A program made the translations under genes and the position numbers. A DNA stretch of 43,440 bases, from NCBI GenBank assembly GCA_003166955.1, contig PMUI01000043.1, forward strand, positions 1 to 43,440, given 5' to 3'. The notes beneath the pieces were generated by a model that was given only the letters and a program-made list of their open reading frames with translations, was not told the DNA's origin and did not search any database. The stretch is from Acidobacterium sp. (lineage in GTDB: Bacteria > Acidobacteriota > Terriglobia > Terriglobales > Acidobacteriaceae). Below are positions 5,067 to 23,290 of this stretch, in pieces. Every line of letters starts with the position of its first letter. Position 1 is the first letter of the stretch.

Positions 5067-5265
5067 TTCTCCTCGAATAGCAATCCGGCGCATTCTCCGC
5101 TACAACTCCGGTAACCAAATCAGGGGTACGCCCTCCCTGAAAGTGGGATACCACGGTCACCAACCCCTCCCTATAGTCCAGACAGATTCCAGCCAGGTAG
5201 ATGGAAGATACAAGCCGCCCAGGCTTTCCCCTCTCCCGGCGACGGCAATCTCGGGGCATCGTTCT

Positions 5266-5970: not shown

Positions 5971-6013
5971 CGAAGTTCAACCCGCAGCAGCACGTAACAA
6001 GTGTGGGTTTGCG

Positions 6014-6050
6014 AAGCGTCTGCTAAACCGCAGACGCTTTGTCGTTTTCC
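6014..6050 (+). terminator. Rho-independent terminator of the BIG2 gene
   Basis: AAGCGTCTGC (6014-6023) and GCAGACGCTT (6030-6039) form a perfect 10-bp stem with a 6-base loop, followed by a T-rich run TTGTCGTTTT. It lies 43 bases after the stop codon of the Ig-like gene. Confidence 0.8.
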
Positions 6051-6187
6051 CCGGACCAAATCCGCCTTCCAATTTCCAGCCTGCCGTCGTAGTAACGAGA
6101 TGAATACAGGAACCTCCCAAGTACACCCTTTCGTGATTGACAGCAGGTAACTTTCGATACACTGATCTCCCCCGTGGAAAAGAACGA

Positions 6188-7207
6188 ATGGAACGGAACG
6201 AACAGAAATACGCGCAAGACCTTTATGACGGCCTGACGGGTCGTTTTTCTCCCGTCGCGGATCAGTCTCAGATTGCCACCACCGGCGGCGGCGTCCAGTG
6301 GCGTTGCTCCGCACAGCGCGGCTCTCGATCCTGCTGGGTGGGTTGTTTTGAAGTCGGCGGCCCCGAATTCCTCACCTTCTTCGAGACCGACGCAAAAAAA
6401 CTCGCAACCGCCAGAACCTCGTCTCAGTCTGAAACCATCGACGCCATCTGGACCTGGCTCGACGGCGCACCCCTCTCCCTCATGTACGAACGCTATTGCT
6501 TCGTCGACTGGGAAAGGCGCAGGCTCATGTCGATTCGCGACCAGGCGCTGAAGACCTTTCCGAATCTGGCATCGGCCGCCCGCAACGAGCTCACCGTCAC
6601 CCCTTCCGGTGTCTCCCATCTTTGGTTTCGCACCGGCTCACGATCCGCCCACGTCCATTTCCCTTCCCGCCACGACATTCCCGAGGCCCTCTTCTACTGG
6701 GACGACTGCGAGCTGTTCCGCTTTGACGCTCCGGACCGCGCCGCCCTGGCCACCGTCCTCTCCTGCTGGCTCGTCGAAAACGCCCCGCCCTCTGCCCTGC
6801 GCAAAGAATTTCCCTGGCTTCACATCGGCCGCCTCGCCGACTTCTACGAAAACGGCAATCCCGTGGAAGGCGAGTTCCTCGAGAGCTGGGATCAGATGGA
6901 GGGCGTCTATGAAGGGTCGCGCTTTCCACCCAGGACCCTGGTTCTGCCCTTCATCGCTGAGCTGCGCCGCGCCGGTTACGACCGCAAGCTCCGTGCCGGT
7001 CAGTCCATCTGGTCCCTGATCGTCTCACGATCGCGCCGATCGCGCCTGCGTCCAGAGCAGCCCCTGGTCTCGTTTCAGTTCCGTGAGAGCACCATGGAAG
7101 TCTTCTCCAGCAATCAGGGCGAGGAACGCATCTTCGAGATCCCCATTGCCCTTTCCGACACGGTGCAGCGCGTCCTCCAGCGCCTCCTCGAGCGTCCCAT
7201 CGACTGA
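6188..7207 (+). CDS. Hypothetical protein, soluble, 339 residues
   Basis: I do not recognise this protein. The ATG at 6188 follows GGAAAAGA and is preferred to a TTG at 6137. It has no signal peptide or membrane segment and is rich in Arg, Trp and Phe, with aromatic stretches such as LWFRTGS, YWDDCELFRFD and EFPWLHIGRLADFYENG. Cys occurs in CSAQRGSRSCWVGC (about residues 38-52), a CxxC-like spacing that could bind metal, but no known motif is complete. Codon use resembles the neighbours, so it is probably a genuine resident gene. It is transcribed alone, after a terminator and 165 bases before the Gfo/Idh gene. Confidence 0.7.
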   Translation: MERNEQKYAQDLYDGLTGRFSPVADQSQIATTGGGVQWRCSAQRGSRSCWVGCFEVGGPEFLTFFETDAKKLATARTSSQSETIDAIWTWLDGAPLSLMYERYCFVDWERRRLMSIRDQALKTFPNLASAARNELTVTPSGVSHLWFRTGSRSAHVHFPSRHDIPEALFYWDDCELFRFDAPDRAALATVLSCWLVENAPPSALRKEFPWLHIGRLADFYENGNPVEGEFLESWDQMEGVYEGSRFPPRTLVLPFIAELRRAGYDRKLRAGQSIWSLIVSRSRRSRLRPEQPLVSFQFRESTMEVFSSNQGEERIFEIPIALSDTVQRVLQRLLERPID

Positions 7208-7372
7208 TCCCGCTCTCCGGTCCTCACGCCTTCCCGCCGCTGCTCTGCCTCTGCGCCGCGGGACTATACTGGCCTCTGCTCTTTCGCCGCGGCAGAAAAC
7301 ACGCTTCGGCCACTGCTGCAAAAAAGCCGCCCGCCAGACCGGCCGCTCAGTTCACGCTTCCATGGAGACAGC

Positions 7373-8695
7373 ATGATCACTCGTCGCGAATTCCTGGACA
7401 CCATGGCGATCGGCGCTGCCGGCCTCGCCGTCGGCAACACTGCGAAAAGCTATGCGCAGATCGTCGGCGCCAACGACCGCCTCAACTTCGCCATCATCGG
7501 GCTCCACAGCCGCGGCTTTGCCCATCTTTCCGCCCTCGCCGCCAACCGCGACACCGCCCGCCTCGCCTGCATCTGCGACGTCGAGACCAACTTCATGGGC
7601 AAGTTCGCGGCCGAGGCCCAGAAGGAACTCGGCTACACACCGCAGTCCGAGGGCGACTTCCGCAGAGTTCTCGAGCGCAAGGATATCGACGCCATCTCCA
7701 TCGCAACTCCCGACCACTGGCATGCGCCCATGGCCATCGCTGGTGTCCAGGCCGGCAAGCACGTCTATGTCGAAAAGCCCTGCAGCCATAACCCCGCTGA
7801 GGGCGCGCTGCTGATCGCCGCGCAAAAGAAATACGGCAAGCTCGTGCAGATGGGCACCCAGCAGCGCTCCTCGCCGCACACCATCGAAATCGTCCAGAAA
7901 ATTCACGACGGCCTCATCGGTCGTCCCTACTACGCCATGGCCTGGTATGTGAACACGCGCAAGTCCATTGGCTACGGCAAAGAGGTGCCCGTCCCGCCCA
8001 CGCTCAACTGGGATCTCTGGCAAGGCCCCGCTCCGCGCCAGCCTTATAAGGACAACGTCCAGCCCTACAACTGGCACTGGTTTCGCGTCTGGGGCACCGG
8101 CGAGACCCTCAACAACGGCACCCACGAGGTCGACGTCTGCCGCTGGGCCCTCGGCGTCGACTATCCCAACCGCGTCTCCGCCAACGGTGGACGCTACCAG
8201 TTCAAGGATGACTGGCAGTTCTACGACACCCTGGTCACCAACTTCGAATACGACGACAAACTCATCTGCTGGGACGGCCGCTGCTGTTCCGGCACAAGAA
8301 TCTACAACCGCGACCGTGGCTCCAGCATTCTCGGCACCACCGGCTCCGTCATCGTCGACCGCGATGGCTACGAGGTCTACGATCTCGGCGGCCACAAGAC
8401 CGGGGAGTTCAAAGTGCAAAAGGAAGCGACCTCCTCATCCGACCTGGTCGGCCGTGACTCCATGACCGACGCCCACTTCGCCAACTTCATCGCCGGCGTC
8501 ACTAAAGGCGAGAAGCTCCGCTCTCCGGTCGAAGTCGGCAACGTCGCCGTCACCATGCTGCAGTTGTCGAACATCGCCTGGGAAGTCCAGCGCGAGCTCA
8601 AGCTCGATGCCAGCAACGGCAAAATCGTCGGCGATGATGAAGCCATGAAAGGCTGGAACCGCGAATACGAAAAAGGCTGGGAGCCGCATCTGTGA
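7373..8695 (+). CDS. Tat-exported Gfo/Idh/MocA-family oxidoreductase
   Basis: NAD(P)-dependent oxidoreductase of 440 residues. ATG 7373 follows GGAGA. The N-terminus has a Tat-type signal (TRREFLDTMAIGAAGLAVG). A Rossmann segment (LNFAIIGLHSRG) starts near residue 38, and the family's EKP motif appears as YVEKPCSHNP. The C-terminal half has the expected substrate-domain features, including GTGETLNNGTHEVDVCRWAL with the conserved His and Asp region. Exported members of this family occur next to TIM-barrel isomerases in gene sets for carbohydrate breakdown, including 3-keto-glycoside routes. The next gene on the same strand is such an isomerase. The exact sugar substrate cannot be told from the sequence. 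Confidence 0.9.
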   Translation: MITRREFLDTMAIGAAGLAVGNTAKSYAQIVGANDRLNFAIIGLHSRGFAHLSALAANRDTARLACICDVETNFMGKFAAEAQKELGYTPQSEGDFRRVLERKDIDAISIATPDHWHAPMAIAGVQAGKHVYVEKPCSHNPAEGALLIAAQKKYGKLVQMGTQQRSSPHTIEIVQKIHDGLIGRPYYAMAWYVNTRKSIGYGKEVPVPPTLNWDLWQGPAPRQPYKDNVQPYNWHWFRVWGTGETLNNGTHEVDVCRWALGVDYPNRVSANGGRYQFKDDWQFYDTLVTNFEYDDKLICWDGRCCSGTRIYNRDRGSSILGTTGSVIVDRDGYEVYDLGGHKTGEFKVQKEATSSSDLVGRDSMTDAHFANFIAGVTKGEKLRSPVEVGNVAVTMLQLSNIAWEVQRELKLDASNGKIVGDDEAMKGWNREYEKGWEPHL

Positions 8696-8781
8696 CGGGT
8701 TCGAGCAATCATGAAACACGGCCCGCGGGCGCCAACTGGATGACCCAAATTGGGGCAACAATGATCGCTTTGAAATGCTCT

Positions 8782-8834
8782 GTCATCCTGAGCGAGCCTT
8801 CCGATAAATCAGCGCGCGTGCTTTTCGCGCGCTG
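8782..8834. repeat. Dispersed repeat: GTCATCCTGAGCG plus GCGCGC hairpin
   Basis: The 13-mer GTCATCCTGAGCG (8782-8794) recurs exactly at 31430-31442 and with one change at 30494-30506. It is followed here by a 9-bp hairpin, CAGCGCGCG (8810-8818) with CGCGCGCTG (8826-8834) and loop TGCTTTT. A very similar hairpin with GCTTTT loop follows the 30494 copy. The hairpin may also terminate the Gfo/Idh transcript, and it separates that gene from the isomerase gene. Confidence 0.65.
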
Positions 8835-8915
8835 AAACAATTCAGCCGCGAGTCGAATGGACCTGCATTTCCTCGCTCGTCGAGCCGCAATCGTTTCTCA
8901 GAGAAGAGGCACTTG

Positions 8916-9773
8916 ATGGAAACCAAACTCTCTCGTCGCGAACTCCTCCGCTCCGCTGCCCTCGCCTCGGCCGCCGCCATCCTTCCCGCCTCATCCTTCG
9001 CCGAGCCTACCGCCGCGCCCAGGGAACCCGCCTCTCCCGTCCGTCTCGGCCTCGCCAGCTATACCTTCCGCAACTTCACGCGCGCTCAGATGATCGGCTT
9101 CATGAAGGATCTCAACATCCTCGACCTCAACGCGAAGGACGCGAAAGATCATCTGCCCATCGATCCCGCCGCCGAGGCCCAGGCCCTCGCCGACTACACC
9201 GCCGTCGGCATTCGCCTGCACGCAGCCGGAGCCATCTATTTCCAGCAGGCCACCGACGACGATATCCGCACCAAATTCGAATACGTTAAACGCGCCAACA
9301 TTCCTGTCATCGTTGCAGGCGATCCGTCGCCCGAGACCCTCCCGCGGATCGAAAAGTTCGTCAAGGAATACGACATCCGCCTCGCCATCCACAACCACGG
9401 TCCGGAAGATAAGCTCTGGCCCTCGCCCCTCGATATCCTCAAAGATATTCACCGCATGGACCCTCGCATCGGCTGCTGTATCGATGTTGGACACACCGTC
9501 CGCGCCGGAACCGATGTCGTCGAGGCGATCCACGCCGCCGGTCCGCGCCTCTTCAATGTGCACATGAAGGACCTGACCGATTTCCGCGCCAAAGAGAGCC
9601 AGGTTGCCGTGGGCGATGGAAAAATGCCTGTCCGCCCGATCTTCGAAGCTCTTATCGCCTTGAAATATCAGGGCTTCGTCGACCTCGAATATGAGGTGCA
9701 CGCCGACGATCCGATGCCCGGTGTCACCAGCAGTTTCGCCTTTATGCGCGGCGTCCTCGCCGGCATGGGTTAA
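8916..9773 (+). CDS. Tat-exported sugar phosphate isomerase/epimerase (TIM barrel)
   Basis: Protein of 285 residues of the xylose-isomerase-like TIM barrel family (AP endonuclease 2 fold). ATG 8916 follows AGAGG. A TTG just before it is not preferred. The signal is Tat-like (SRRELLRSAALASAAAILPAS). Barrel marks are GLASYTFRNF at the first strand, IPVIVAGDPS, RLAIHNHGPEDKLW with the metal/substrate His residues, IGCCIDVGHTVRAG, RLFNVHMKDL and GFVDLEYEV. The His, Asp and Glu ligands typical of the family are present. Together with the upstream oxidoreductase it suggests an extracytoplasmic sugar-conversion pathway. Substrate unknown. Confidence 0.88.
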   Translation: METKLSRRELLRSAALASAAAILPASSFAEPTAAPREPASPVRLGLASYTFRNFTRAQMIGFMKDLNILDLNAKDAKDHLPIDPAAEAQALADYTAVGIRLHAAGAIYFQQATDDDIRTKFEYVKRANIPVIVAGDPSPETLPRIEKFVKEYDIRLAIHNHGPEDKLWPSPLDILKDIHRMDPRIGCCIDVGHTVRAGTDVVEAIHAAGPRLFNVHMKDLTDFRAKESQVAVGDGKMPVRPIFEALIALKYQGFVDLEYEVHADDPMPGVTSSFAFMRGVLAGMG

Positions 9774-9782
9774 CCCGCCTAA

Positions 9783-9901
9783 GGAAACTCTGATTAAGCC
9801 GCTGTTTTGAAGGGGCACGGCTTCAGCCGTGCCGTAAAGATCAGTGAAAAATGGGCTTTAGCCCCTGAGGGATGATTTTCGAAGGCTTAATCAGAGCTTC
9901 C
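9783..9901. repeat. Palindromic REP/MITE-like element, 119 bp
   Basis: The ends are 18-bp inverted repeats with one mismatch: GGAAACTCTGATTAAGCC (9783-9800) and GGCTTAATCAGAGCTTCC (9884-9901). Inside are two smaller palindromes: GGCACGGC/GCCGTGCC around TTCA (about 9814-9833), and GGGCTTTAGCCC (9853-9864). The unit carries no gene. This nested architecture is typical of REP/BIME elements spread by RAYT transposases or of small MITEs. No transposase is in the window. It sits 9 bases after the isomerase stop codon and would form a long hairpin in that transcript. Confidence 0.75.
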
Positions 9902-10080
9902 CTAACTTCCGGCAGACTTTGCCCCGTGCGGGTCCTGTTCGCTGCCCCAACAAATGCCCCGGCAATTAAGTCCTACCTAAGTGGTACCCTGTCCACCCAT
10001 GGTTGACTTATACTTACCCTCGCGTACGCCGATAACTTCCGTAGGAAGGTGCGCGCGTGGCGCGCAAAAGGGGAAACCGG

Positions 10081-12246
10081 ATGGATGCAGTCAGCGGAGT
10101 GACTGGTCCCCAACCAAAGTGTGGGCGTTCCGTGGTGGCTCGTCGACGCGTCTCCCTGGAGTGTGCTCCGGGATCGTTCATTCCCTTCATCCTGCTGGCC
10201 TTTCTCTCCCTCTCCGTGCATGCGGCCCAGCCGCCACTCGCTGTGATCCGCACCGTCCGCCAGGCTCACACCCTCCCCAACAGTGAGGCCGTAAAGGGAT
10301 ATCCCGTCCATCTCGATCACGCTCAAATTACCTTCTTCGATTCCACCATCCAATCCATGTTCGTGATGGACGACAGCGACGGCATCTTTGTGGATGCGCG
10401 CGGCGATCAGGTGCCGGATGTGCGCGCCGGCGACGTCGTCCAGCTCGACGCCGTCAGCGGCCCAGGGGACGTCGAGCCCGTCCTCCTGCATCCCCACTTC
10501 CGCATTCTGCGCAACGCTCCGCTTCCCGACGCGCCCCTGATCGGCTTCGACCGCCTCTCCCTCGACTTCTACGATTCCCGCTGGGTAGCCATCCAGGGCA
10601 TCGTCCGATCCGTCCGCAGGCCGCAACAAGTCACCTATTACGCCGGCCACGCCGCTTCCAGCAGTGCCAATCTCATCGTCACCCTCGCCTCCGGCCAGGA
10701 CCTCATGGATGTCATTACTCTCGACCCTCGCGGCGGCGACCACAGCAACCTGATCGACGCCACCGTCCGCCTGCGAGCCGCCTGTGGAACCCGATTCAAT
10801 CAGCGAAAACAGATCATCGGCGTTCACCTGTACATGCCCGACATCTCCTATATTCAGGTGCTCGAACCCGCCCCCGCTGATTCCTTCTCGCTGCCCGTCA
10901 GCGATACCGCCGACGTCATGCGCGCCAGCCAGCATGAGCGCGGCCATCGCGTTCATGTTCGCGGCGTCGTCACTTCCACCTGGGGACCAAACCAGTTTTC
11001 CCTCATGGATGCCGCTCACGGCATCTTTGTGCATACCGAAAGCCCTGCCGCCGTTTCCGTCGGTGACCTCCTCGATGTCGTCGGGTTCCCTAACCTCGGC
11101 GACTATACCTCCGTCCTCGACGAGGCCATCTATCGCCGCATCGGCATTGCCCGCCCTCCCCTGCCTGCCAAAATTCCCGCCGCTCAGGCGCTCGACGGCG
11201 AGCACGACGCCGAGCCCGTCCAGATCGATGGGCAACTGCTCTATAAATCACGCACCGCTGACGAAAAAACTCTCCTCCTCACCGATGGCGGTCTCACTTT
11301 CTCGGCGGCGCTTCCCGCTGATACTCCCCAGGGCTTTGACCAACTGCAGCCAGGCAGCCGCCTTCGCATCACTGGGATTTGCTTCATCGAAGTCTCTCCC
11401 AACAAGCGGCCCAAAGCTCTGAAGATCCTTCTGCGTTCCCCCGCCGATGTTCTCGTCCTCTCCCGCCCCTCCTGGTGGACACCGCGCAATACCCTCGTCC
11501 TCGCGTCCCTGCTCTTCGCCATCGCCGCCACTGTTGTGACCTGGAACCTCGGACTGCGCCGCCGGGTTCGCGGCCAGACCCGCGTCATCCGCTCCCAGCT
11601 CGAGGAAGCCCACTCTCTGCGCCTGCAGGCTGAAGCTGCCCATCATGAAAAAAGCGAGTCCCTGGCCAATGTCCTCTCCCTGCAGCGCGACCTTATCGCC
11701 GCCCAGGAGAAACTACGCTATCAGGCCACGCACGATGTCCTCACCGGCCTCTGGAGCCGCGGTGCTCTGCTCGATCTGTTGCGCAGCGAAATCGAGCGCA
11801 CTCTGCGTACCGGAAACTCGTTCGGCATCCTCATGCTCGACGTCGATCACTTCAAACCCATCAACGACACCCATGGCCATCTGGCCGGCGACGCCGCCCT
11901 CAGGGAAATCGCGCACCGCATCAGTCATGCCATTCGCCCCTACGACATGGCCGGCCGCTACGGAGGCGAGGAGTTTCTCGTCGTTCTCCCCGACTGCGAG
12001 CGCAAACAAACCGAATCCAGCGCCGAACGCATTCGCGACGCCATCTCTTCTTCCCCCTTTGTGGTTGGCAATTGTGCAATCTCGCTGACCGTCAGCATCG
12101 GCGCCACCGTCGCTCCCGATTGCGCCCGGACGGAAACCGAGCTTCTCAGCCTGGCCGACCTGGCTCTTTACCAGGCCAAGAATGCCGGCCGCAACTGCAC
12201 CATTCTCAGAAGTTCCTTCGAGGAAGAGCACGCGGAAACAACGTGA
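10081..12246 (+). CDS. Membrane-bound diguanylate cyclase with periplasmic sensor
   Basis: Makes cyclic di-GMP from two GTP. Length is 721 residues from ATG 10081 (AAGGGG 7 bases upstream). GTG 10057 also has an AGGAAGG site and would add 8 residues. After a signal/transmembrane segment (FIPFILLAFLSLSVHA) comes a long periplasmic region (about 45-460) with repeated OB-fold-like units (GxVxS...DAAHGIFVHTE...VGDLLDVVG). A second membrane helix (TLVLASLLFAIAATVV) leads to a coiled coil (about 510-560) and the GGDEF domain. The active motif GGEEF is at 628-632, and RPYD, the inhibitory I-site RxxD, lies exactly five residues before it. The enzyme should therefore be active and feedback-inhibited. 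The sensed signal is unknown. The gene is convergent with the acyltransferase, 9 bases away. Confidence 0.92.
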   Translation: MDAVSGVTGPQPKCGRSVVARRRVSLECAPGSFIPFILLAFLSLSVHAAQPPLAVIRTVRQAHTLPNSEAVKGYPVHLDHAQITFFDSTIQSMFVMDDSDGIFVDARGDQVPDVRAGDVVQLDAVSGPGDVEPVLLHPHFRILRNAPLPDAPLIGFDRLSLDFYDSRWVAIQGIVRSVRRPQQVTYYAGHAASSSANLIVTLASGQDLMDVITLDPRGGDHSNLIDATVRLRAACGTRFNQRKQIIGVHLYMPDISYIQVLEPAPADSFSLPVSDTADVMRASQHERGHRVHVRGVVTSTWGPNQFSLMDAAHGIFVHTESPAAVSVGDLLDVVGFPNLGDYTSVLDEAIYRRIGIARPPLPAKIPAAQALDGEHDAEPVQIDGQLLYKSRTADEKTLLLTDGGLTFSAALPADTPQGFDQLQPGSRLRITGICFIEVSPNKRPKALKILLRSPADVLVLSRPSWWTPRNTLVLASLLFAIAATVVTWNLGLRRRVRGQTRVIRSQLEEAHSLRLQAEAAHHEKSESLANVLSLQRDLIAAQEKLRYQATHDVLTGLWSRGALLDLLRSEIERTLRTGNSFGILMLDVDHFKPINDTHGHLAGDAALREIAHRISHAIRPYDMAGRYGGEEFLVVLPDCERKQTESSAERIRDAISSSPFVVGNCAISLTVSIGATVAPDCARTETELLSLADLALYQAKNAGRNCTILRSSFEEEHAETT

Positions 12247-14141: not shown

Positions 14142-14372
14142 GCCAAAGGCAGTATCGCACGCCGGGTGACTGCGGCGAAGGCTACCCTGGTAACCCTCCT
14201 GGAGCCGCACTTCCACGCCGTTCCGCTCATCGATTGCCGCCCTGGAAATGCAACCCTCACCGCTGTAGTACTATGCCAGGAAGCGTTCTCTCCATCCCCA
14301 AAATCTCGCGCTGGCCATGCATGCCGTTCCCGGCCTTCGCGGCAATCTTCATGCTGTCCGGAGGTCATCCTG

Positions 14373-15734
14373 ATGGGTCTTCGCCGTTCGCTCCGCACTC
14401 CCCCTTCGCGCCTTCTTCCCTTCGTGCTCATTGCAGCGTCCGCGACAATCGTCCCGATCCTCGCCCACGCCCAGCAATCCCCGCCCACGGATATTGTCTT
14501 CCGCGGCGCCACGGTCATGACCGCCAGCCACGGCACCCTTTCGCCCGGCGCCGTCTGGGTGCATGCCGGAAAAATCGCCGGAGTCGGCGCCACCGTCTCC
14601 GCCCCCGACTCGGCCACCGTGGTCGACGCCACCGGCCTCTGGCTCACGCCCGGCATCATCGATCCCCACTCCCACTCCGCGCTCGACGGCGATGTCAACG
14701 AGGCCACCAGCCCCGTCACCCCCTCGATGCACATGATCGACGCCTTCGACAACCGTTCCGCCGACCTCTACCGCGCGCTCGCCGGCGGCGTCACCACCGA
14801 GCTACTGCTTCACGGCTCGGCCAACATGATCGGCGGCCAGGCCGTGGTCATCAAGAACAAGTTCGGCCTCGACCGCGATGCCATGCTCTTCCCCAATGCG
14901 CCCGGCTCCATCAAGTTTGCCTCCGGCGAAAACCCCAAGCGCGTCTACGGAAGCCGCGACCAGCTCCCCTCCACCCGCATGGGCAACTTTGAAGTCATGC
15001 GCATGGCCTTCGAAGACGCCAAACACTACATCGCCGACTGGGACGCCTACGACGCCAAGGTGAAAAAAGGCGACAAGGACGCCGTCGCTCCCAAGCGCGA
15101 CCTCAAACTCGAAGCCCTGGCCGACGTCCTCCGCGGCAAGCTCTACGTCCAGATCCACTGCTATCGCGCTGACGAGTTCCTCACCGAAGAAGCCATCGCC
15201 AAAGAGTACGGCTATAAGATTCGCGCCTTCCACCACGCGCTCGAAATGTACAAAGTTGGCCCGCAGATCGCGGCCGACGGTACCGCCATCGCCACCTTCA
15301 CCGACTGGTGGGGCTTCAAGGACGAAGCCTGGGACGCCATTCCCTGGAACGCGGTCATGTCCATGCGCCAGGGCGTCCGCGTCGCCCTCAAAAGCGACTC
15401 CGACGACCACATCCGCCGCCTCAACGTCGAAGCCGGCAAGATGATTCACTACGGCGGCGCCACCGAGGACGAAGCCGTCCGCATGGTCACCCTCAACCCC
15501 GCATGGATCATCGGCGTCGATGACCGCACAGGCTCCATCGACGTCGGCAAGGACGCCGACCTGGTCCTCTGGAACCACGATCCCCTCTCCACCTATGCCC
15601 ACGCCATGAAGGTCTACATCGACGGCGATCTCTTCTTCGACGCCTCCCTCCCCGGCTGGGGCACCACGCACTTCACCGGCGTCATGCACGAGGGCGGCGG
15701 TTTCGGCTCTGACGACGAGGAGGACGGACAGTGA
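14373..15734 (+). CDS. Exported amidohydrolase, metal ligands intact
   Basis: Metal-dependent hydrolase of 453 residues. ATG 14373 follows an excellent CCGGAGGT site. The frame extends upstream to 14166 but without protein features. Residues 1-30 form a signal peptide (LLPFVLIAASATIVPILAHAQ). The imidazolonepropionase/urease-like fold shows the HxH metal pair at H99 and H101 (DPHSHSALDGD), a further His at 262 (VQIHCYRADEF), His in IRAFHHALEM, and the catalytic Asp region ALKSDSDDH. The C-terminal composite domain has GSIDVGKDADLVLWN. Its stop overlaps the start of a second amidohydrolase, implying translational coupling. Substrate unknown; related exported enzymes act on small amides or peptides. 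Confidence 0.9.
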   Translation: MGLRRSLRTPPSRLLPFVLIAASATIVPILAHAQQSPPTDIVFRGATVMTASHGTLSPGAVWVHAGKIAGVGATVSAPDSATVVDATGLWLTPGIIDPHSHSALDGDVNEATSPVTPSMHMIDAFDNRSADLYRALAGGVTTELLLHGSANMIGGQAVVIKNKFGLDRDAMLFPNAPGSIKFASGENPKRVYGSRDQLPSTRMGNFEVMRMAFEDAKHYIADWDAYDAKVKKGDKDAVAPKRDLKLEALADVLRGKLYVQIHCYRADEFLTEEAIAKEYGYKIRAFHHALEMYKVGPQIAADGTAIATFTDWWGFKDEAWDAIPWNAVMSMRQGVRVALKSDSDDHIRRLNVEAGKMIHYGGATEDEAVRMVTLNPAWIIGVDDRTGSIDVGKDADLVLWNHDPLSTYAHAMKVYIDGDLFFDASLPGWGTTHFTGVMHEGGGFGSDDEEDGQ

Positions 15735-17041
15735 TCAAGGCTCTGGCTCAAGTAACTATAACTGTTACGTGTTTGGCAATTCCCGCTGCCCTGCTCGCGG
15801 CAGACACCCCCACACCTAAGACCATCGCCATCGTCGGCGGCAAGCTCCTCACCGTCAGCCACGGCGCCATCGAGAATGGCGTCCTCATCCTCGCTGACGG
15901 CAAAATCGCCGCCGTTGGCGCCGCCGCCGAAGTGAAAATCCCCAAAGGCGCGCAGATCGTCGACGCCAAAGGCCTCACTGTCTATCCCGGCCTCATCGAC
16001 CCTGAGTCCAACTTTGGCCTCACCGAAATCAGCGCCGACGCCATGTCCAACGACCTCGAGGAGCGCTCCGACGAGATCATGCCCCACATGCACGTCGCCG
16101 ACGCTTTCCACTCGGAAACCGAGCTGATCCCCGTCGCCCGCCTCAACGGCATCACCAACGCCGTCGTCGCTCCCGCCAGCGACGACTCCATTGCCGGCCA
16201 GGACATCTTCATCCAGCTCTACGGCAGCCGCCAACAAATGATGCTCGCCGCCGACGTCGCCCTCGCCATGAACTACGGCGCCGAGCAGCGCCGGTCCAAT
16301 GGCTTCCGCGGCGGGCACGCGACCTATCCATCTACCCGCATGGGCCTCATCACCGAGCTTCGCCAGACCTTCCTCGATACCCAGGACTACATAGCGAAGC
16401 GCGACGCCGCCGCAAAGAAAAGCGATGCGGCTTTCAAGCGCGACCTCAAATTCGAAGCTCTCATTCCCTACCTCAAAGGCGAGCGCCCGGTCGTTATCGG
16501 CGTCTACGAGTCCTACGACGTCGAGACCATCATGAAGCTCGCCCAGGAATTCCACCTCAAGATCATCCTGAACCACGTCACCCAAACCCAGGAAATTCTG
16601 GATGAGATCGCCGCGTACAAAGTCCCCGTCATCATCGGATCCATCTATGACGCGCCCCGCGCCAACGAGCGCTACGACTCCGTCTACACGCTGCCCGCGG
16701 AGTTGGCGAAGCGCGGCGTCAAAATCGCCATTTCCTCAGCCGATGGAGGTGGTCCCGCCAGCAGCCACTCCGCGCGCAATCTCCCCTATGCCGCCGGATT
16801 CGCAGTCGGCTACGGCCTTCCCTACGACGACGCCCTGAAAGCCATCACGCTGAATGTCGCCGAGATGTTCGGTTTTGGTGACAAACTCGGCTCCCTCGAC
16901 GTCGGGAAAATGGCCAACGTCGTCCTGGCCAACGGCGACCCCCTCGACGTCCGCACCGACGTAAAGCAGGTCTATATTCAGGGCGTCGCCGTCCCCATGG
17001 TCAGCCGCCAAACCCAACTCCGCGACGAGTACAGCAAGTAA
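15731..17041 (+). CDS. Exported amidohydrolase-like partner lacking HxH
   Basis: 436 residues, starting at GTG 15731 inside the overlap GTGA with the preceding gene, after GGAGGACGGACA. Signal peptide about 1-24 (VTITVTCLAIPAALLAAD). It has the same fold as its neighbour: GGKLLTVSHGAIENGVLILADGKI at the start, LTVYPGLIDPESN where the metal site begins, and GSLDVGKMANVVLANGDPL at the end. The metal-binding HxH is replaced by E92-S-N94, and the third-His segment VQIHCY reads VVIGVYESYD. LNHVTQTQE keeps one His. The canonical binuclear site therefore cannot form, and this chain may be a regulatory or structural partner, or use another chemistry. Coupled expression suggests a hetero-oligomer with the upstream enzyme. 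Confidence 0.88.
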   Translation: MIKALAQVTITVTCLAIPAALLAADTPTPKTIAIVGGKLLTVSHGAIENGVLILADGKIAAVGAAAEVKIPKGAQIVDAKGLTVYPGLIDPESNFGLTEISADAMSNDLEERSDEIMPHMHVADAFHSETELIPVARLNGITNAVVAPASDDSIAGQDIFIQLYGSRQQMMLAADVALAMNYGAEQRRSNGFRGGHATYPSTRMGLITELRQTFLDTQDYIAKRDAAAKKSDAAFKRDLKFEALIPYLKGERPVVIGVYESYDVETIMKLAQEFHLKIILNHVTQTQEILDEIAAYKVPVIIGSIYDAPRANERYDSVYTLPAELAKRGVKIAISSADGGGPASSHSARNLPYAAGFAVGYGLPYDDALKAITLNVAEMFGFGDKLGSLDVGKMANVVLANGDPLDVRTDVKQVYIQGVAVPMVSRQTQLRDEYSK

Positions 17042-17147: not shown

Positions 17148-17675
17148 TTAGTCAGGGACCTTCTCATTCGCGCCGTAATCGTGCCGCCGCGCGCTCCCCT
17201 CCGGATCGTGGATCCAGTGCTTCAGCCGATTCGCGTTGACCTCGATCCGCACCACATCCAGCTCCCCATGCTCGTCGTAGTCCGCAATGAGCATACGCAT
17301 CGCAGAGCCGTTCGGCTGCACGTAAATAATGTTGACCTCCCCATTCCGCTCCCGCTCCACGACAAAGCGCTCCCATCCGCCTCCCAGAGAATCCCCAACC
17401 AACTTCTCCAGCTCCCCTGTATCCGAAACTTTGTTCAGGTGATCGAACTCCGCGATCTTCATCCCCTTCACGCCGCCGCCCGTCGCCACCCACGCGCAGA
17501 AGTTCACAAACCCCATCATCGGCAGGCGCTCCGCATGCGCGTCGTAACACTGCTCTACGGCGAATACCACAGCATCAAAATCGTGGCCAGAAGCAGCCCG
17601 CACCGTCATCGGCAAAACCACAGCCGCCGCCACCACCACAAGAGCCCCGCCAGCAACCAAACTCGCCATTCTCAT
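17148..17675 (-). CDS. Exported hypothetical protein of the DUF4252/sigma operon
   Basis: 175 residues, not recognised as a named family. Begins with a signal peptide or anchor (MRMASLVAGGALVVVAAAVVLPM). The mature part has one notable Cys-containing stretch (FAVEQCYDAH, VNFCAWVAT) and a region resembling the C-terminal half of DUF4252 proteins (GGWERFVVERERNGEVNIIYVQPNGSAMRMLIADYDEHGELDVVRIEVN). The two proteins may be distant relatives by duplication. Its ATG (17675) overlaps the stop of the DUF4252 gene by 4 bases, so translation is coupled. Probably a periplasmic factor of the sigma-factor regulon. Confidence 0.75.
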   Translation of the reverse strand: MRMASLVAGGALVVVAAAVVLPMTVRAASGHDFDAVVFAVEQCYDAHAERLPMMGFVNFCAWVATGGGVKGMKIAEFDHLNKVSDTGELEKLVGDSLGGGWERFVVERERNGEVNIIYVQPNGSAMRMLIADYDEHGELDVVRIEVNANRLKHWIHDPEGSARRHDYGANEKVPD

Positions 17676-18307
17676 TGCTCCTGGTCCTCCTTCTGCGCTT
17701 TATCCGCTGTCTTCGCTTTCTCATCGGCCTTCTTCTGCGTCTTGTCCTTGGTCTTCACGCCCAGATCGTAGCTGCCCGCCGGAATCCCGAAGTTCCCGCT
17801 CAGGTCCTTCAAATCCTCCGGACGAATCGGTCCCGAGATGTACACGAAATTCAATTCCTTCGCTTCCGCGTCCAGAATGAACATCCCCTGCACCTCGCCG
17901 TTCACCAGCTTCATGTAGATATCCGCGTCGTCCGACCCATTCCGCGACCGCGTCTTTACCAGCGAGCTCCATTCCGGCGTATCGAACTGCCGCCGCACTG
18001 CCTCCAGATCCGTCGGCGTATATTGGCCCGGCTTGTCGAACTCATAGCTGCGCACGTAAACGCCGTTCAGCTTCGCGACAATCCGCTTCCCTTCCGCGTC
18101 GTCCTTGTCGTTCATGAAGTGGCTGGCAAAGTCCAGCATCTTCCGGTCCAGCGACACCTCCGTGTAGTTCGACGCCCGCTCCGCCAGTTGCTTCTCGATC
18201 GTCACCGGGAACGGCGATTGCGACGATGATTGCGCCACCGCTGGCAGCCCCATCCCCGCAACGGTTGCAAGACTCCAAATCGCAATCCCAACCAAAACTC
18301 TCTTCAT
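17672..18307 (-). CDS. DUF4252 exported protein
   Basis: 211 residues. ATG 18307 follows GGAGAGGGG by 7 bases. A longer frame from 18376 lacks a signal. Signal peptide MKRVLVGIAIWSLATVAGMGLPAVAQ. The DUF4252 core runs about residues 45-170, with VSLDRKMLDFASHFM, LNGVYVRSYEFDKPGQY, EWSSLVKTRSRNGSDDADIYMK, MFILDAEAKELNFVYISGPI and EDLKDLSG. The tail is Lys/Asp/Gln-rich (about 185-211) and likely flexible. DUF4252 genes commonly sit with ECF sigma factors, as here. Its biochemical function is unknown. It is the third gene of the sigma operon. Confidence 0.88.
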   Translation of the reverse strand: MKRVLVGIAIWSLATVAGMGLPAVAQSSSQSPFPVTIEKQLAERASNYTEVSLDRKMLDFASHFMNDKDDAEGKRIVAKLNGVYVRSYEFDKPGQYTPTDLEAVRRQFDTPEWSSLVKTRSRNGSDDADIYMKLVNGEVQGMFILDAEAKELNFVYISGPIRPEDLKDLSGNFGIPAGSYDLGVKTKDKTQKKADEKAKTADKAQKEDQEQ

Positions 18308-18341
18308 GACTGACCCCTCTCCTCTTCCTGATCCCGTGCTG

Positions 18342-18719
18342 CTACTCATCTCTTTCAAGAACCGCTCTCCCTGCACCCTTCTGGCTCAGCTTCTCCCCGC
18401 TGCTTGCGCTCACTTTCGTCTGCACATCCCGCAACGTCGATCCCGTGATGCGCAGCGCCAGCAGCACCTGCTCCCGCGCCCGCTCACCGGCGATACGCTG
18501 TTGCCGGTCATGCTCCACACCGCCCACCACCATTCCCGCTACCAGCAGCGCCGCCACTGCCCACCTCCACACAGGCATCCCAAAGCCAAACCACTTCCAG
18601 CTCGATGCCCGCCGCTCCGGGACCCGCGCCATCACCCGCGCGGCAAATCCCGCCGGTGTCTCCCGCGTCCGCAACTGCTCCCGCAGCTCTCGCTCGAAAT
18701 CGTCCATCTTCTCAACCAC
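18342..18719 (-). CDS. Probable anti-sigma factor, single-pass membrane protein
   Basis: 125 residues from GTG 18719; ATG 18707 is an alternative. Cytoplasmic N-terminus (DDFERELREQLRTRETPAGFAARVMARVPERR), one transmembrane helix about 50-69 (VWRWAVAALLVAGMVVGGV), then a short external Arg/Ala-rich tail. It overlaps the sigma gene by 8 bases. Gene order and topology match small anti-sigma factors that hold an ECF sigma at the membrane, but no ZAS-type HxxxCxxC motif is present. The role is inferred from context. The start of the next gene lies 34 bases on. Confidence 0.7.
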   Translation of the reverse strand: MVEKMDDFERELREQLRTRETPAGFAARVMARVPERRASSWKWFGFGMPVWRWAVAALLVAGMVVGGVEHDRQQRIAGERAREQVLLALRITGSTLRDVQTKVSASSGEKLSQKGAGRAVLERDE

Positions 18720-19227
18720 GGCTGTACTCCTTCAGCGTCCGTTCCGCCTTCGCCCGCAGCATCTTCACTCCCCGCTGCAGATAACTCCTCACCGTCGCCA
18801 GCGGCATCTTCAGTTCAAGCGCGATGTCCTCCGGCTCCAGGTCCTCCTGATACCGCAACAGCATCACCGCCCGCTGCTGCGGCGGCAACGTCAACAGCAA
18901 CTGCTCCACCCGATTCATCAGCGGCATAAAATCCCGCACCACCGGCCGCAACGCCATCCCGTCCTGATATTCCTCCGCCGCCGCATCGCCCCGCGCTGCT
19001 CTTCTCCGCAGCGCATCGGTCGCCCGATGGCAAGCCACCCTTCGCACCCAGGCCGCGACGTGCTCCTCGCTCTCCAGCCGTGCCAGACTGCGATGCAGTT
19101 CCAGAAACACATCCTGAGCAACCTCCTCCGCCACGCCGCTCTCCCCCAGAATCCGAAACGCAATCGAGAAAACCCGCCCCTGATGGCGCTCGACAAGACC
19201 TCGAAATGTCTCCGGCAAATGGTCCAA
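18712..19227 (-). CDS. ECF-family RNA polymerase sigma factor
   Basis: 171 residues. Region 2 is at about 5-75 (FRGLVERHQGRVFSIAFRIL, VAEEVAQDVFLELHRSL, AAWVRRVACHRATDALRRR). Region 4 is at about 108-165 (LLTLPPQQRAVMLLRYQEDL, EDIALELKMPLATVRSYLQRG). The start is a TTG at 19227; an in-frame stop five codons upstream leaves no better choice. It directs transcription of a small regulon and heads a four-gene operon with its likely anti-sigma and two exported proteins. A GGAAAAA motif on the minus strand near 19310 could be part of an ECF -35 element for autoregulation, but no clear -10 is seen. Confidence 0.93.
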   Translation of the reverse strand: MDHLPETFRGLVERHQGRVFSIAFRILGESGVAEEVAQDVFLELHRSLARLESEEHVAAWVRRVACHRATDALRRRAARGDAAAEEYQDGMALRPVVRDFMPLMNRVEQLLLTLPPQQRAVMLLRYQEDLEPEDIALELKMPLATVRSYLQRGVKMLRAKAERTLKEYSRG

Positions 19228-19361
19228 CGAGGCACGCCCTCAACCGCTGTACCCGCATATACGCAAATCGCCGCCCCGGCTGATGCAAAATCCGCGTAGT
19301 TTTCAGATTTTTCCGGAACGATTGCGCCGGACCGAGAACCGGCCCGCGTCGACCCGCGGCC

Positions 19362-20630
19362 TTACCGGCCGCCCTTGGCCGTCCCGCCACCCACCGTGAT
19401 TCCCAGAGCAAAGTCCGCATCGTCCGAACTCCGGCTCATCACGGGATGCTGCCCCAGCGTCTGCCCATCCTTCTTCCCGTCCGCCGCGACGCGGTCCGAC
19501 ACCTGCTGCGCCACCGAAGAAAACACCTGACTCATCGGCGTCATACCGTTGCCGCTTTTCATTGCCTGCAACAAGAAGTATGTGAAATACCCATGCCGCA
19601 GTTGATCGCTTTCCAGCGATTCCTCATTCGAGCTCGCCGCCGCAATCACAATTCGCCCCGTGCCCTGGCTCATCCGGTCCAGGTTCGCCTGCGACGGCGA
19701 AACGTTAGCAATGCCCGCTCCCATCTTCTTCGACACGTTCGTCACCGCGCCGCCGCTGTAGCAGGTATCCAGAATCACCGCCGTCCGCAGCGATTTCATG
19801 CGCGTCGCCACCGCGTTCGCCAACTCCACCATCGGCAGGGCCGTCGCATACAGCGAATCTTCGTCCGGGCTATCCGCGTTCTTGATCTCCGTGTCGTAGG
19901 TCACGATGTAGTTCACGCCGCCCGCCGAGTCCAGCTCTCGCGGCGACCCATGCGTGGCCACGTAGATCACCACCAGGTCATTCGGCTGCGCGTTCCTCGC
20001 GATCCAGTTCAGCTGCTCTTTGATGTTCTTCGTCGTTGCCTGATCGTCCGTCAGTACCTTGACGTTGGCCGCCGGGAACCGCCCAATCGCCGGGTCCTTC
20101 AGCTCCGCCGCAAACGCGCTGGCGTCCGCCGTCGTGTAATTTAGCTGCGGCACCGCGCGATCCGCAAAGCGGCTGACGCCCACGATGAGAGCCCATTTCT
20201 GCTGAACCGGTCCCGCGGTCGCAGGCCCGCTCGCTGCTCCCTGCCCCTGCGGCGCATTCGCTGTCAGTGCCCGGCTCCGCGCCGGCGGTGTCGCCAGCAC
20301 AAACGGATTCAGCCCCTGCTGCATCGCCTCCGAGCCAAACATCCGCGCCTTGTCCATCGAATACTGCGCCAGATTCGCGTGTCCCAGCTTCTGCTCCACC
20401 AGGCTGCGGAAGTACCACGCGTCGCCCAGCTCGCTGCACGTCTGAACCGCGTGCTTCAGCAGCTGCAGCGCATCTTCGAATGCGCCGTCGCTACTGCCCG
20501 GTGGAACCCGCTCCAGCGCCTGCACCACCAGGTCCTTGCCCGCCCCGCAGCGATCGCCCTGCGCGTAGGCACACGTGCAGGCCACAACCCCCAGCAGCAC
20601 AACCACAGCCGCGCGCGATCCAGCCTTCAT
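19362..20630 (-). CDS. Exported caspase-like cysteine protease (C14, orthocaspase)
   Basis: 422 residues. Signal peptide about 1-23 (AAVVVLLGVVACTCAYAQ). A TPR-like helical part (about 30-100, YFRSLVEQKLGHANLAQYSM) and an Ala/Gly/Pro linker precede the caspase domain from about 140 (KWALIVGVSRFADRAVPQLNYT). The catalytic dyad appears complete: His227 in YVATHGSPRE and Cys290 in VILDTCYSGG. The domain ends near 400. Caspase-like enzymes of bacteria usually cut after basic residues. Export of this one points to action outside the cytoplasm. Its start overlaps the stop of the TPR protein (20627-20630), so the two are translationally coupled. The sigma operon begins 134 bases downstream. Confidence 0.92.
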   Translation of the reverse strand: MKAGSRAAVVVLLGVVACTCAYAQGDRCGAGKDLVVQALERVPPGSSDGAFEDALQLLKHAVQTCSELGDAWYFRSLVEQKLGHANLAQYSMDKARMFGSEAMQQGLNPFVLATPPARSRALTANAPQGQGAASGPATAGPVQQKWALIVGVSRFADRAVPQLNYTTADASAFAAELKDPAIGRFPAANVKVLTDDQATTKNIKEQLNWIARNAQPNDLVVIYVATHGSPRELDSAGGVNYIVTYDTEIKNADSPDEDSLYATALPMVELANAVATRMKSLRTAVILDTCYSGGAVTNVSKKMGAGIANVSPSQANLDRMSQGTGRIVIAAASSNEESLESDQLRHGYFTYFLLQAMKSGNGMTPMSQVFSSVAQQVSDRVAADGKKDGQTLGQHPVMSRSSDDADFALGITVGGGTAKGGR

Positions 20631-22015
20631 TTCGCCAGCTCCTGCGCCGCCCGCGCCTTCATCGCGCTCAGCACGCCAGAGCTCACTCCGCCTGCCAGCA
20701 GCTTCTTCTGCCCCGCCGAGCTCAGATCGAAATCCACGGCCTTCGCGTTCTTCACAATCTGCTCCACTGAGTCATCGGCGATCCCATTCTTCACCATCGC
20801 GATCACCTGCGAATCCGTAAGCGCGCTCGATCCCGAAGCGGTCGGCCGCGCTGTGCCCGTCGTGGTCGAGGCGGGCGCTGGGGTCTTCGCCGGCGGGGTG
20901 GCTGGCGGCTTCGTCGAAGCCGCCGGGGGTTTCCCCGGCGTGCTGGCGAGTCGCTTGCTGGCTGCCGGCGCACTGGCAACCGTCGGCGGCCGCGGTTCGG
21001 ACGACGGCGGTGGCGGTGGTGGCGGTGGATTCTTCGCCTCTTCCAGATTCCTGTAGTGCGTGATCGCCGTCTCGATCCGTTTCTGAGGCTCCAGGAAGTA
21101 CTTCTCGCCAGGCTTCGCGTCGACCGCCTTGCCATAGTCGATGGCGGCCTCATCGAGGAACTTCATCGCCGATTTGGGATCCTCGGCAGCGTAGCCCAAC
21201 GCTTCGTTGGCGACTCCGATGTTGTAGAGCCGATACGCATCCTCATCCTTCTTGGTCAGCGGCGGCGCGGTTTCGAACGTCTCCAGTGCGCGCTCCCAAA
21301 GGCCAGCCTCCGCCTGCTTGTCGCCTTCATCGATCGGACCCTTGTTTCTCGCGAGAAAGACGTCAATCGCCTCATTCGTCACCACGATCTGCTCGGCGAC
21401 CTGGTGCACCGCATCGGTCAGCAGAATCTTGCGCAGCTGGGGTTCGGTAGGCTGCTTGTCACCCTGGTCATCGTTCCCCGACTTCCCCTTCATCCCGTGA
21501 AACGGGTTCTTCAGGTCGTTCATCAGGCCGTGCGACAGATTGTTCCCCGCCGCGTCGAACTGCTGATCGTACTTGGCGGACACGTTTTCCGAAGCCAGCG
21601 CGCGCCCGCCGCTGGTGCGCGCCTGGAACGAGACGTCGAGCGAACCGGTAACACGGACGATGACCGTGACCGAATTTCCGAACTGCTGCCGGGTCTCGGT
21701 GGGGCGCGGATGATCGAAGCTGATGATCTGGCAACTGATCGTCGTTGCCGGGTTATTCTCGTCAACCCGCAGCCGCGGGTCGTCCTTCAGCAGCTCGGTC
21801 TCCAGCAGCGCCTCGAGATCGTGAGCAAGATCCGCCTGGTCCTGGTGGCCTGTGACTTTCACCCGGATCGTATCGCCAGGCAGATGCACCAGCGCCGGCA
21901 GCTTGCGCTTCAGCGTAACTTTGGTTTTTGCCATCCCGAAGTTCTGGGCCTGGACCGTGAGTGTCATGGCCGCCAACGCCATTGCGGTCACAACCCCAAT
22001 TCCGCGTACCGTCAT
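20627..22015 (-). CDS. Exported TPR protein coupled to the caspase gene
   Basis: 462 residues from ATG 22015 (GAGGAG 8 bases upstream). Signal peptide 1-24 (IGVVTAMALAAMTLTVQAQ). Residues about 30-170 (TLKRKLPALVHLPGDTIRVK, LLETELLKDDPRLRVDENNP, TTISCQIISFDHPRP) resemble the fold of CsgG/LpoB-like periplasmic proteins, but I cannot assign a family. Residues about 230-330 contain TPR-like helices (AYRLYNIGVANEALGYAAED, MKFLDEAAIDYGKAV). A Pro/Ala/Thr linker follows, including eight consecutive Pro. The C-terminus (about 400-462) is a small helical domain (LTDSQVIAMVKNGIADDSVE). Likely a binding partner or scaffold for the caspase. Confidence 0.82.
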   Translation of the reverse strand: MTVRGIGVVTAMALAAMTLTVQAQNFGMAKTKVTLKRKLPALVHLPGDTIRVKVTGHQDQADLAHDLEALLETELLKDDPRLRVDENNPATTISCQIISFDHPRPTETRQQFGNSVTVIVRVTGSLDVSFQARTSGGRALASENVSAKYDQQFDAAGNNLSHGLMNDLKNPFHGMKGKSGNDDQGDKQPTEPQLRKILLTDAVHQVAEQIVVTNEAIDVFLARNKGPIDEGDKQAEAGLWERALETFETAPPLTKKDEDAYRLYNIGVANEALGYAAEDPKSAMKFLDEAAIDYGKAVDAKPGEKYFLEPQKRIETAITHYRNLEEAKNPPPPPPPPSSEPRPPTVASAPAASKRLASTPGKPPAASTKPPATPPAKTPAPASTTTGTARPTASGSSALTDSQVIAMVKNGIADDSVEQIVKNAKAVDFDLSSAGQKKLLAGGVSSGVLSAMKARAAQELAK

Positions 22016-22045
22016 TGCCAACTCCTCGGATCGAAGGCCCTCCAC

Positions 22046-23290
22046 TTACTGGGGCTGACTGCTGCTCTCAGGTTTACTGTTGTCGTCTGGCTTGCTGCTG
22101 CCTTCGGGTGTGCTGCTGGCTGCCGGCTTGGTACTGGTTGCACTCTTGCTGCCGCTGCTTGTGGTGGTGGTCGCACTCTTCTTCTTGGTAGTGCTGCTGC
22201 TACTGCTGCTGCTCGAGCTGCTGCCGGAACTGCCGCTGCTCTCGCCGTTGCCATACTCCGTCATCGGCGTCACGCTCAGATGAATCGTGATGTAGCTGAT
22301 GTCCGGCTGCGCCTTGGCCGCCGTCTCGTACACCGAACTCGTATCCGGCGCGTCCTTTGGAATCATGTAGCCGTTCGCGAGCTTCAGGTTATCGAGATAC
22401 GGTTTCAGATCGTCGGTGTGCGACTGCGGCACCAGCACGTAGTCGCCGGTGGGAACATTAATTCCGATCGTCGAGTTCGCCTGCTCCCGCGCTGCCTGCG
22501 TTGCGAATGCCTGCTGCGGCCGTGCCTGAAACAGAAACACCGACCGGTTCGCCAGCACCCCGTACAACTTGCTGAAACCGGCCAGCGCCGTCATGCTGAT
22601 TGCCGGGAACCCAAGCACCGGCGCCACTCGCGACGCGTCATTCACCAGCGTCTTGATCACTGTCCAGAACTCCGACTCCTTGTGCACCATCGAGACGTTC
22701 ACCGCCATGTGGCCCACGCCGCCCGGCAGCAGGATCTTCTGCATGTTTTGCGCCGAGGTCGATGGATCGAAGCTCAGGTTCTGCAGCGGTGGCAGCTTAC
22801 CACCCTCATCTGGGAAAATCGCCGCCAGTGCCATCCATGCCAGCGGATCGATCATGTTGAACATCGGCTTGCCCTGCATCATGTCGATCCGCAACTGCGC
22901 CGACTGCAGCTGCTCGAACTTCTGCCGATCCGCGCTCGACAGCCGGATCCCGCCCACCTGCATGCTCACCGCAACGTCGCCCGGATAATCCGGCAACTCG
23001 TCGTTGGGGATCTGGTCTGCGTAGCGCAGCCCCTGATCGCCAAAGTGCAGGTAGTTCACCTGCCGGTCTGCATCCGTCCCCGGCAGTTTGTGGCCCATCA
23101 GCCCGCGCTCGTGCGGCGCCTTCGCCAAAAAGCTGCCCCAGAACGCCGCCCCAGTGCCCGCGCTCGTATCCGTAACCGGGTCGTCCAACGCCGCGGTTAA
23201 CGCCGCCGCCGTCTCCGGCTTCGTCAACAGCCCCGCCAGCGCCCCGCTGGCCGCCAGTTCGCCCAAAAATGTCCTTCGTGAGATTGTCAC
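22046..23290 (-). CDS. Tat-exported hypothetical protein with Ser/Thr-rich tail
   Basis: 414 residues from GTG 23290, which follows GGGGAGCGGCT and starts directly at a Tat signal (TISRRTFLGELAASGALAGL). A longer frame upstream to 23395 has no support. The body (about 40-345) is not recognised. It has several hydrophobic, Ala/Met-rich helices (FNMIDPLAWMALAAIFP, PVLGFPAISMTALAGFSKLY) and the phrase PGDVAVSMQVGGIRLSSADRQ. The last 70 residues are low-complexity Ser, Thr, Lys and Pro, with a run of ten Ser, as in flexible or glycosylated stalks. First gene of the caspase operon, 30 bases before the TPR gene. Function unknown; Tat export suggests it folds before secretion. Confidence 0.78.
   Translation of the reverse strand: MTISRRTFLGELAASGALAGLLTKPETAAALTAALDDPVTDTSAGTGAAFWGSFLAKAPHERGLMGHKLPGTDADRQVNYLHFGDQGLRYADQIPNDELPDYPGDVAVSMQVGGIRLSSADRQKFEQLQSAQLRIDMMQGKPMFNMIDPLAWMALAAIFPDEGGKLPPLQNLSFDPSTSAQNMQKILLPGGVGHMAVNVSMVHKESEFWTVIKTLVNDASRVAPVLGFPAISMTALAGFSKLYGVLANRSVFLFQARPQQAFATQAAREQANSTIGINVPTGDYVLVPQSHTDDLKPYLDNLKLANGYMIPKDAPDTSSVYETAAKAQPDISYITIHLSVTPMTEYGNGESSGSSGSSSSSSSSSSTTKKKSATTTTSSGSKSATSTKPAASSTPEGSSKPDDNSKPESSSQPQ

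Follow-up and report, generated by a model that had tools for sequence, protein, structure and literature searches.

Metacaspase operons with sigma-70 factors were reported in 2012 for Myxococcus and other bacteria, together with metacaspases that have N-terminal helices, possibly signal peptides, or domains judged extracellular (PMC3501461). EACC1-caspase systems have been described (PMC7159879), as have EACC2-caspases (PMC8195603, 2021), whose neighbourhood often includes an extracytoplasmic function (ECF) sigma factor and a tetratricopeptide repeat (TPR) protein. In Porphyromonas gingivalis, genes for a sigma factor, a hypothetical protein and a DUF4252 protein form the runs PG_0214-PG_0216 and PG_0985-PG_0987 (PMC10101095). 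Here we consider seven minus-strand genes at 17148-23290 of a contig of 43,440 nucleotides from Acidobacterium sp. (PMUI01000043.1 of assembly GCA_003166955.1, a 5.4-Mb genome). The whole contig is called the window, and positions without a contig or locus name are those of the window.

The seven genes appear to form two independent modules lying side by side, A (19362-23290) and B (17148-19227). Module B is an operon of an ECF sigma factor. Module A, judging from the sequences, would combine a caspase-fold protease acting outside the cytoplasm with a client or regulator that is exported, already folded, by twin-arginine translocation (Tat). Its core would be the overlapping genes of an LptE/TPR-like protein and a caspase, both predicted to be exported through the general secretory (Sec) pathway. 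We give this explanation as a whole, the separation of the modules included, a probability of about one half. The family of the Tat protein accompanies several kinds of exported caspase-fold peptidases, C14 as well as CHAT, and this makes it a concrete candidate substrate or regulator of an exported bacterial caspase, as it recurs beside these peptidases in varied order and orientation.

The Tat-protein family and its neighbours

The first gene of module A (22046-23290, minus strand, GTG start) encodes a predicted Tat-exported protein with the motif SRRTFL. It has no Pfam domain match, and nine relatives gave only two chance-level Pfam rows (Arg_repressor_C, 0.063, and YdaS_toxin, 0.14). No description of the family was found in the literature searched, nor in scans of Pfam, NCBIfam, PHROGs and PADLOC. 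The window protein and the inspected signal-bearing relatives have a twin-arginine motif near the start, followed by a moderately hydrophobic stretch. Export signals were called throughout by motif and hydrophobicity, a heuristic and not SignalP. By this measure the signals that the sequence-only reading assigned to all three module A proteins are plausible, although the score of the Tat protein with the NCBIfam TAT signal model (15.4 bits) is just under the cut-off of 16.7.

The family was traced by single-sequence and profile searches in overlapping genome samples, and found in 8 of 299 and 11 of 399 class genomes, in 3 of 396 phylum genomes and in six named loci; the named relatives belong to Acidobacteriaceae/Terriglobia. 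The locus of genome G129 was met through its caspase, not through the Tat search. After removal of duplicates (L049/L013, L053/L035 and L054/L036, each pair counted once as the same locus) there were 16 loci, 15 of them with readable surroundings; L051 (PKVY), where the contig ends shortly after the gene, was excluded.

A caspase gene lies at most 3 kb from the Tat gene in nine of the 15 loci: those of the window genome, G129, G064, PMAD, JAJYZE, G256, G365, G310 and G187. The Tat gene may be upstream or downstream of the caspase gene, divergent or convergent. In G310, two Tat fragments (end of contig C96, start of C170) were taken as one gene by virtue of their complementary matches, the contigs being unjoined. 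The Tat gene of G365 has the caspase on one side and a TPR-CHAT gene on the other, CHAT being a caspase-like domain. In G816 and G831 it adjoins a TPR-CHAT gene whose start, by inspection, resembles an export signal. In G070, a run of genes on one strand includes two for exported-looking caspases, at distances of about 5 and 8 kb from the Tat gene.

The number of C14 caspases in ten Tat genomes ranges from 0 to 10, and G129 and G064 have the caspase of the module only. Pairs of Tat and caspase genes within 3 kb are present in seven of these ten genomes, against 0.045 expected by chance. Without G129 the count is 6/9 (P about 3e-13), and collapsing the window type to a single case makes it 5/8 (P about 9e-11), these being simple Poisson values that ignore shared ancestry beyond the collapse of the window type.

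The G070 run (L058 = C29:637000-652000, positions 403-11924, minus strand) comprises the Tat-family gene, a ceramidase-like gene with a Pfam score just under the cut-off, the two caspase genes, and genes named RlpA/SPOR-like and NlpC-like by inspection.

A relative without a Tat signal, found in G463, is homologous to the family at 97% probability (8.5e-11). It stands in a run of four minus-strand genes (L044 = C1:2992000-3008000, positions 3200-8378); the other three are of the alpha/beta-hydrolase-like, TPR-S/trypsin and TIR-like/CBS kinds. The TPR-S/trypsin match is above the cut-off, the hydrolase and TIR matches are below, and the run has the appearance of a cytoplasmic operon of the conflict type. 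A search of 41 genomes of its class with the G463 relative recovered only the relative itself. Nothing was found in plasmids with this relative or with the Tat protein of the window, nor in viral contigs with the Tat alignment. The literature search yielded no paper on a metacaspase operon with a Tat signal or on TPR-S with a caspase.

The LptE/TPR-like and caspase gene pair

The gene of the LptE/TPR-like protein (20627-22015, minus strand) follows the Tat gene after a gap of 30 bases and overlaps the caspase gene (19362-20630, minus strand) by 4 bases. The protein is probably Sec-exported and consists of a weakly LptE-like N-terminal half and a TPR-like half, both matches being under the curated Pfam cut-offs (LptE 0.0054, 17.8 bits against 23; TPR_11 0.39). 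The caspase, probably exported as well, is a clear member of Peptidase_C14 (8.4e-19, 68.6 bits against the curated Pfam cut-off of 21.4). It has TPR-like N-terminal helices, a conserved cysteine pair at positions 28 and 65, and the dyad His227/Cys290, which was read from the sequence alone and is confirmed by alignment. Proteolytic activity and a basic P1 preference would be expected of a member of this family.

The profile of the TPR-like family gave nine strong matches in the 299 class genomes, eight of them with readable surroundings; the gene in G253 reaches the contig end and was left out, and seven weak matches (2e-17 to 6e-12) are outside the count. In seven of the eight cases the TPR-like gene is directly followed by a caspase gene. 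Four further pairs came from other searches (G129, G139, PMAD, JAJYZE). By their ORF (open reading frame) starts, six pairs, the window included, overlap by 4 bases. Both the histidine and the cysteine are kept in 10 of 11 paired caspases.

After the predicted signal, five inspected caspases, one of them a fragment, contain only an N-terminal pair of cysteines and the catalytic one, a set that would suit an oxidising compartment. The spacing of the pair is 37 in four of them and 43 in G139. The paired caspase of G161 (L078, positions 6861-8006) has no such pair; its sequence starts with a twin-arginine stretch like a Tat signal, a feature absent from the others inspected.

Two types of caspases can be distinguished, short ones with a separate LptE/TPR-like gene and long ones with a C-terminal half of their own. 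This half is common to the long caspases that G256, G365, G187 and G070 encode near the Tat gene, and to one in G310; G256 and G187 have both types, at separate loci. A match to DUF4384, under the cut-off, was seen in one of three long caspases scanned, and comparison of the profile of the C-terminal half with the TPR-like and Tat families gave nothing. Among the distant caspases from the family search, four neighbourhoods and that of G126 were looked at.

The AlphaFold model of the caspase, built from six rows, has a mean predicted local distance difference test score (pLDDT) of 45.1. Its match to TPR structures is confined to the N-terminal helices (best E 0.011, template modelling score 0.78 on the target), and in this low-confidence model the N-terminal domain resembles TPR. 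This model and that of the Tat core are too poor for a claim on the fold beyond these helices. In a sequence search of solved structures the caspase matched metacaspase-1 chains weakly (0.005), and the Tat and TPR-like profiles had no match.

Possible mechanism and alternatives

The proposed sequence of events is as follows. The caspase and the LptE/TPR-like protein would leave the cytoplasm through Sec, and the latter may scaffold or anchor the former. The Tat protein would be exported already folded through Tat, and would be a dedicated client or regulator of the caspase. With separate export routes, caspase and Tat protein would not meet before both have left the cytoplasm. There the Tat protein would undergo limited cleavage, or would be released by the protease, and this would be the output. 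To our knowledge, prokaryotic caspase relatives have mostly been studied in the cytoplasm.

One alternative, possible if doubtful, is that the Tat protein is a pro-effector cut and activated by the exported caspase, the module being a device of defence or competition outside the cytoplasm. Activation of this sort has been proposed in the conflict systems EACC and NucA-trypsin. The sparse, patchy distribution of the family is in its favour, as are the protease-bearing run opened by the signal-less relative in G463, and the best NCBIfam model of the caspase, which is the EACC1-associated one (NF047832). However, the score with this model is 104.8 bits, under the cut-off of 140 (relatives score 101, 96 and 43.9), and only one locus represents the cytoplasmic case. 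The Pfam results for the Tat protein and its nine relatives also speak against a pro-effector, and in PADLOC the best model for the caspase is a generic caspase one, the Tat and TPR-like proteins getting nothing.

It is also conceivable, if about as doubtful, that the Tat protein is an inhibitor or chaperone of the exported caspase, and that the module serves quality control or remodelling of envelope proteins. An inhibitor or adaptor could well go with long caspases, short caspases and CHAT proteins, as the family does, and in a 12-row alignment of the family six positions are invariant (D, G, P, A, G and Y), with no catalytic-looking set. On the other hand, a housekeeping role would predict a wider spread than 8 of 299 class genomes.

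A further proposal, which we regard as unlikely, is that module A is the extracytoplasmic counterpart of the caspase/trypsin conflict systems. An exported C14 or CHAT protease and a Tat-exported prefolded client would then meet outside, and cleavage would trigger the response.

Probable independence of the two modules

The ORF positions at 17148-23290, the gap and the overlaps are as stated in the sequence-only reading. That reading linked the two groups of genes and named as checks the conservation of the seven-gene order and a common ECF promoter. The linkage was examined in a family survey of 150 genomes, with thresholds of E 1e-20 or better for the caspase and E 1e-25 or better for the sigma factor. 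Caspase matches were found in 11 genomes and sigma matches in 39. Seven genomes have both, on one contig in two of them, namely the window genome and its congener G129, which belong to one genus.

In G129 the triad of module A genes is about 2.8 kb from the sigma operon, and the intervening minus-strand genes (L013, positions 7885-10318) encode a second ECF sigma factor, an NrsF-type anti-sigma factor and a protein of 339 amino acids without a Pfam match. Among the five genomes with the modules on separate contigs, G064 is the clear case: the orthologous triad sits at 171 kb of the 669-kb contig C1, and C4 carries the closest sigma match. Thus the situation named beforehand as contradicting the link, groups far apart in a related genome, does occur. 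The remaining four genomes have distant caspases only (about 32-34% identity), and two of them are in hundreds of contigs. No sigma match was found around the triads of G064 (16 kb) and JAJYZE (7-kb contig).

The converse comparison gives the same picture. In ten other sigma loci, of 8-16 kb each, there is no match to the Tat, TPR-like or caspase protein of the window (0/10), and none to the profiles of caspase, CHAT, TPR-like and Tat families (0/10), the CHAT profile having been built from the three CHAT neighbours of the Tat family. Eight of these loci have the sigma, DUF4252 and related genes, and two have sigma and DUF4252 only. The congeners G033 and G149 have kept the sigma operon, and a caspase match at E 1e-20 is absent from both. 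In G149 the region between the DinB gene and the sigma gene contains no triad but two genes, one VOC-like and one S9-peptidase-like, together with a toxin-antitoxin-like pair; in G033 an S9-peptidase-like gene is upstream of the sigma gene (names other than DinB are by sequence inspection).

Module B consists of minus-strand genes for an ECF sigma factor (18712-19227, TTG start), a putative anti-sigma factor (18342-18719, overlapping the sigma gene by 8 bases), a DUF4252 protein (17672-18307) and a protein distantly related to DUF4252 (17148-17675, overlapping the DUF4252 gene by 4 bases); the last two have export signals by the heuristic. The order sigma (regions 2 and 4), anti-sigma, DUF4252 is present. 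As to the gene labels given from the sequence alone, those of the caspase, sigma and DUF4252 proteins hold above the Pfam cut-offs (Sigma70_r4_2 6.1e-15 and Sigma70_r2 2.3e-14 for sigma, DUF4252 2.5e-15), whereas the anti-sigma, TPR and last genes are weakly labelled. The anti-sigma factor is identified mainly by position, together with weak matches below the cut-offs (DUF5056 0.12 in Pfam, antisigma 5.5e-5 in NCBIfam). For the last gene DUF4252 gives just 0.27 and the top Pfam row, MBD (0.0059), is at chance level, its kinship to DUF4252 being backed by tblastn in another genome (6e-5).

The 134-base gap between the caspase and sigma genes holds the operon's own ECF-type promoter-like motif TTTTGCATC-N18-CGTATA (19259-19290, minus strand), absent from the sequence-only reading. 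The spacer of 18 bases between TGCATC, or a close form, and CGTATA recurs in 8 of 12 sigma upstream regions from four genera, these eight (the window genome and seven others) having been chosen by eye; the strict form is absent from the other four. In the window genome the strict form occurs twice, each time 5' of a sigma gene. In 13 genomes a similar strict pattern has 12 matches in eight genomes, six just upstream of a sigma orthologue and six elsewhere, against two matches of a reversed control pattern. Apart from the sigma matches, none is upstream of the two triads in this set. With a matrix that includes the window's own site, this site scores 31.7 bits, the next separate site in the window reaches 16.1, and no site upstream of the Tat gene exceeds 6.1. 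Given the conservation of the motif, module B would most likely drive its own transcription from a putative promoter of its own.

A promoter common to both modules was considered and rejected, as TGCATC-N14-20-CGTA is found in the window only at the sigma gene (0.39 expected by chance). A general sigma-70 promoter scan found none, and there are 8 terminator-like sites against 4.9 (standard deviation 2.2) in shuffled sequences.

The second site of the strict motif in the genome precedes a sigma paralogue (C67:36583-37259, L059; 48% identity), which has no match to the window DUF4252 protein within 7 kb. Two tandem amidohydrolase genes on the plus strand (14166-17041), with ORFs overlapping by 4 bases, converge on the DUF4252 operon.

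Since the triad and the sigma gene are far apart in G064 and the motif was not found upstream of the triad, control of module A by the sigma factor, or reporting to it, is unsupported. A single seven-gene unit, in which the ECF sigma factor would respond to envelope stress and would either drive the exported caspase module or receive information from it, is highly improbable: the groups are adjacent on one strand in the window genome and close in G129, and caspase genes with sigma-70 or with ECF sigma and TPR genes are known (PMC3501461, PMC8195603), but the modules share a contig in just two of seven genomes, a second sigma/anti-sigma pair intervenes in one of these, ten of ten other sigma loci, of 8-16 kb, have no module A match, and no promoter motif is common to both. 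What is supported of the claim is the caspase-fold protease module, with an apparently exported caspase, conserved and apparently exported partners and an intact dyad; its tie to the sigma factor is not supported. Keeping module A apart from the neighbouring sigma factor spares experimenters a wrong direction.

Several points weigh against two independent modules with an exported caspase and its Tat-exported client or regulator. The Tat family is rare and patchy (8/299 and 11/399 class genomes). At its loci in G243 and G796 no match to a caspase or CHAT profile was found in 12-16 kb of sequence, and when the later-found G796, G831 and G816, with no C14 caspase nearby, are added, six of 12 Tat-search genomes, the window genome included, have the pair. 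One TPR-like gene, on contig 108 of G187, has no caspase beside it. The paired caspase of G295 has lost the catalytic cysteine motif, and serine stands at this position in an unpaired relative from G126. The AlphaFold model of the Tat core (seven rows) is poor, with a mean pLDDT of 47.6, and had no match in PDB at E 0.001 or better. Interaction, cleavage and export of the module A proteins are predictions. Finally, a weak or different sigma target site may exist 5' of the triad.

Comparison with known systems

The prokaryotic metacaspases and orthocaspases resemble the window caspase in the Peptidase_C14 fold, the His/Cys dyad and the possible export. The Tat family and LptE/TPR-like partners are not among the features described in the passages of PMC3501461 considered.

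The EACC1- and EACC2-caspase systems are similar in combining a constant caspase with a constant partner, and EACC2 loci often add an ECF sigma factor and a TPR protein (PMC8195603). They differ in that no EACC1 or DUF1822 match is seen in the window proteins, whose caspase partners look exported. The two genes 5' of the caspase gave no EACC1 match in Pfam and NCBIfam, the presence of an EACC1 model there not being verified. The TPR-like protein is no DUF1822 TPR partner, as it gives only the LptE and TPR_11 matches. The region before the caspase domain, with its TPR-like helices in the low-confidence model, has no Pfam match; the EACC2 model was not compared.

TPR-CHAT genes stand beside the Tat family in three genomes (G816, G831, G365), whereas in the window the LptE/TPR-like protein is a separate one and the caspase is of the C14 type.

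Module B is similar in gene content and order to the runs of P. gingivalis, and one of the best matches of its sigma factor is to the PG_0214-type NCBIfam model (1.4e-22). However, P. gingivalis belongs to another phylum, and the score of 80.2 is under the cut-off of 130 of this model.

A new arrangement for bacterial caspases, as suggested from sequence alone, is too strong a description: sigma-70 metacaspase operons and possible signal peptides (PMC3501461) and an EACC2-caspase neighbourhood with ECF sigma and TPR genes (PMC8195603), like sigma/DUF4252 runs, are already in print. What is new here is the presence, in an exported caspase module, of a partner family for which no description was found.

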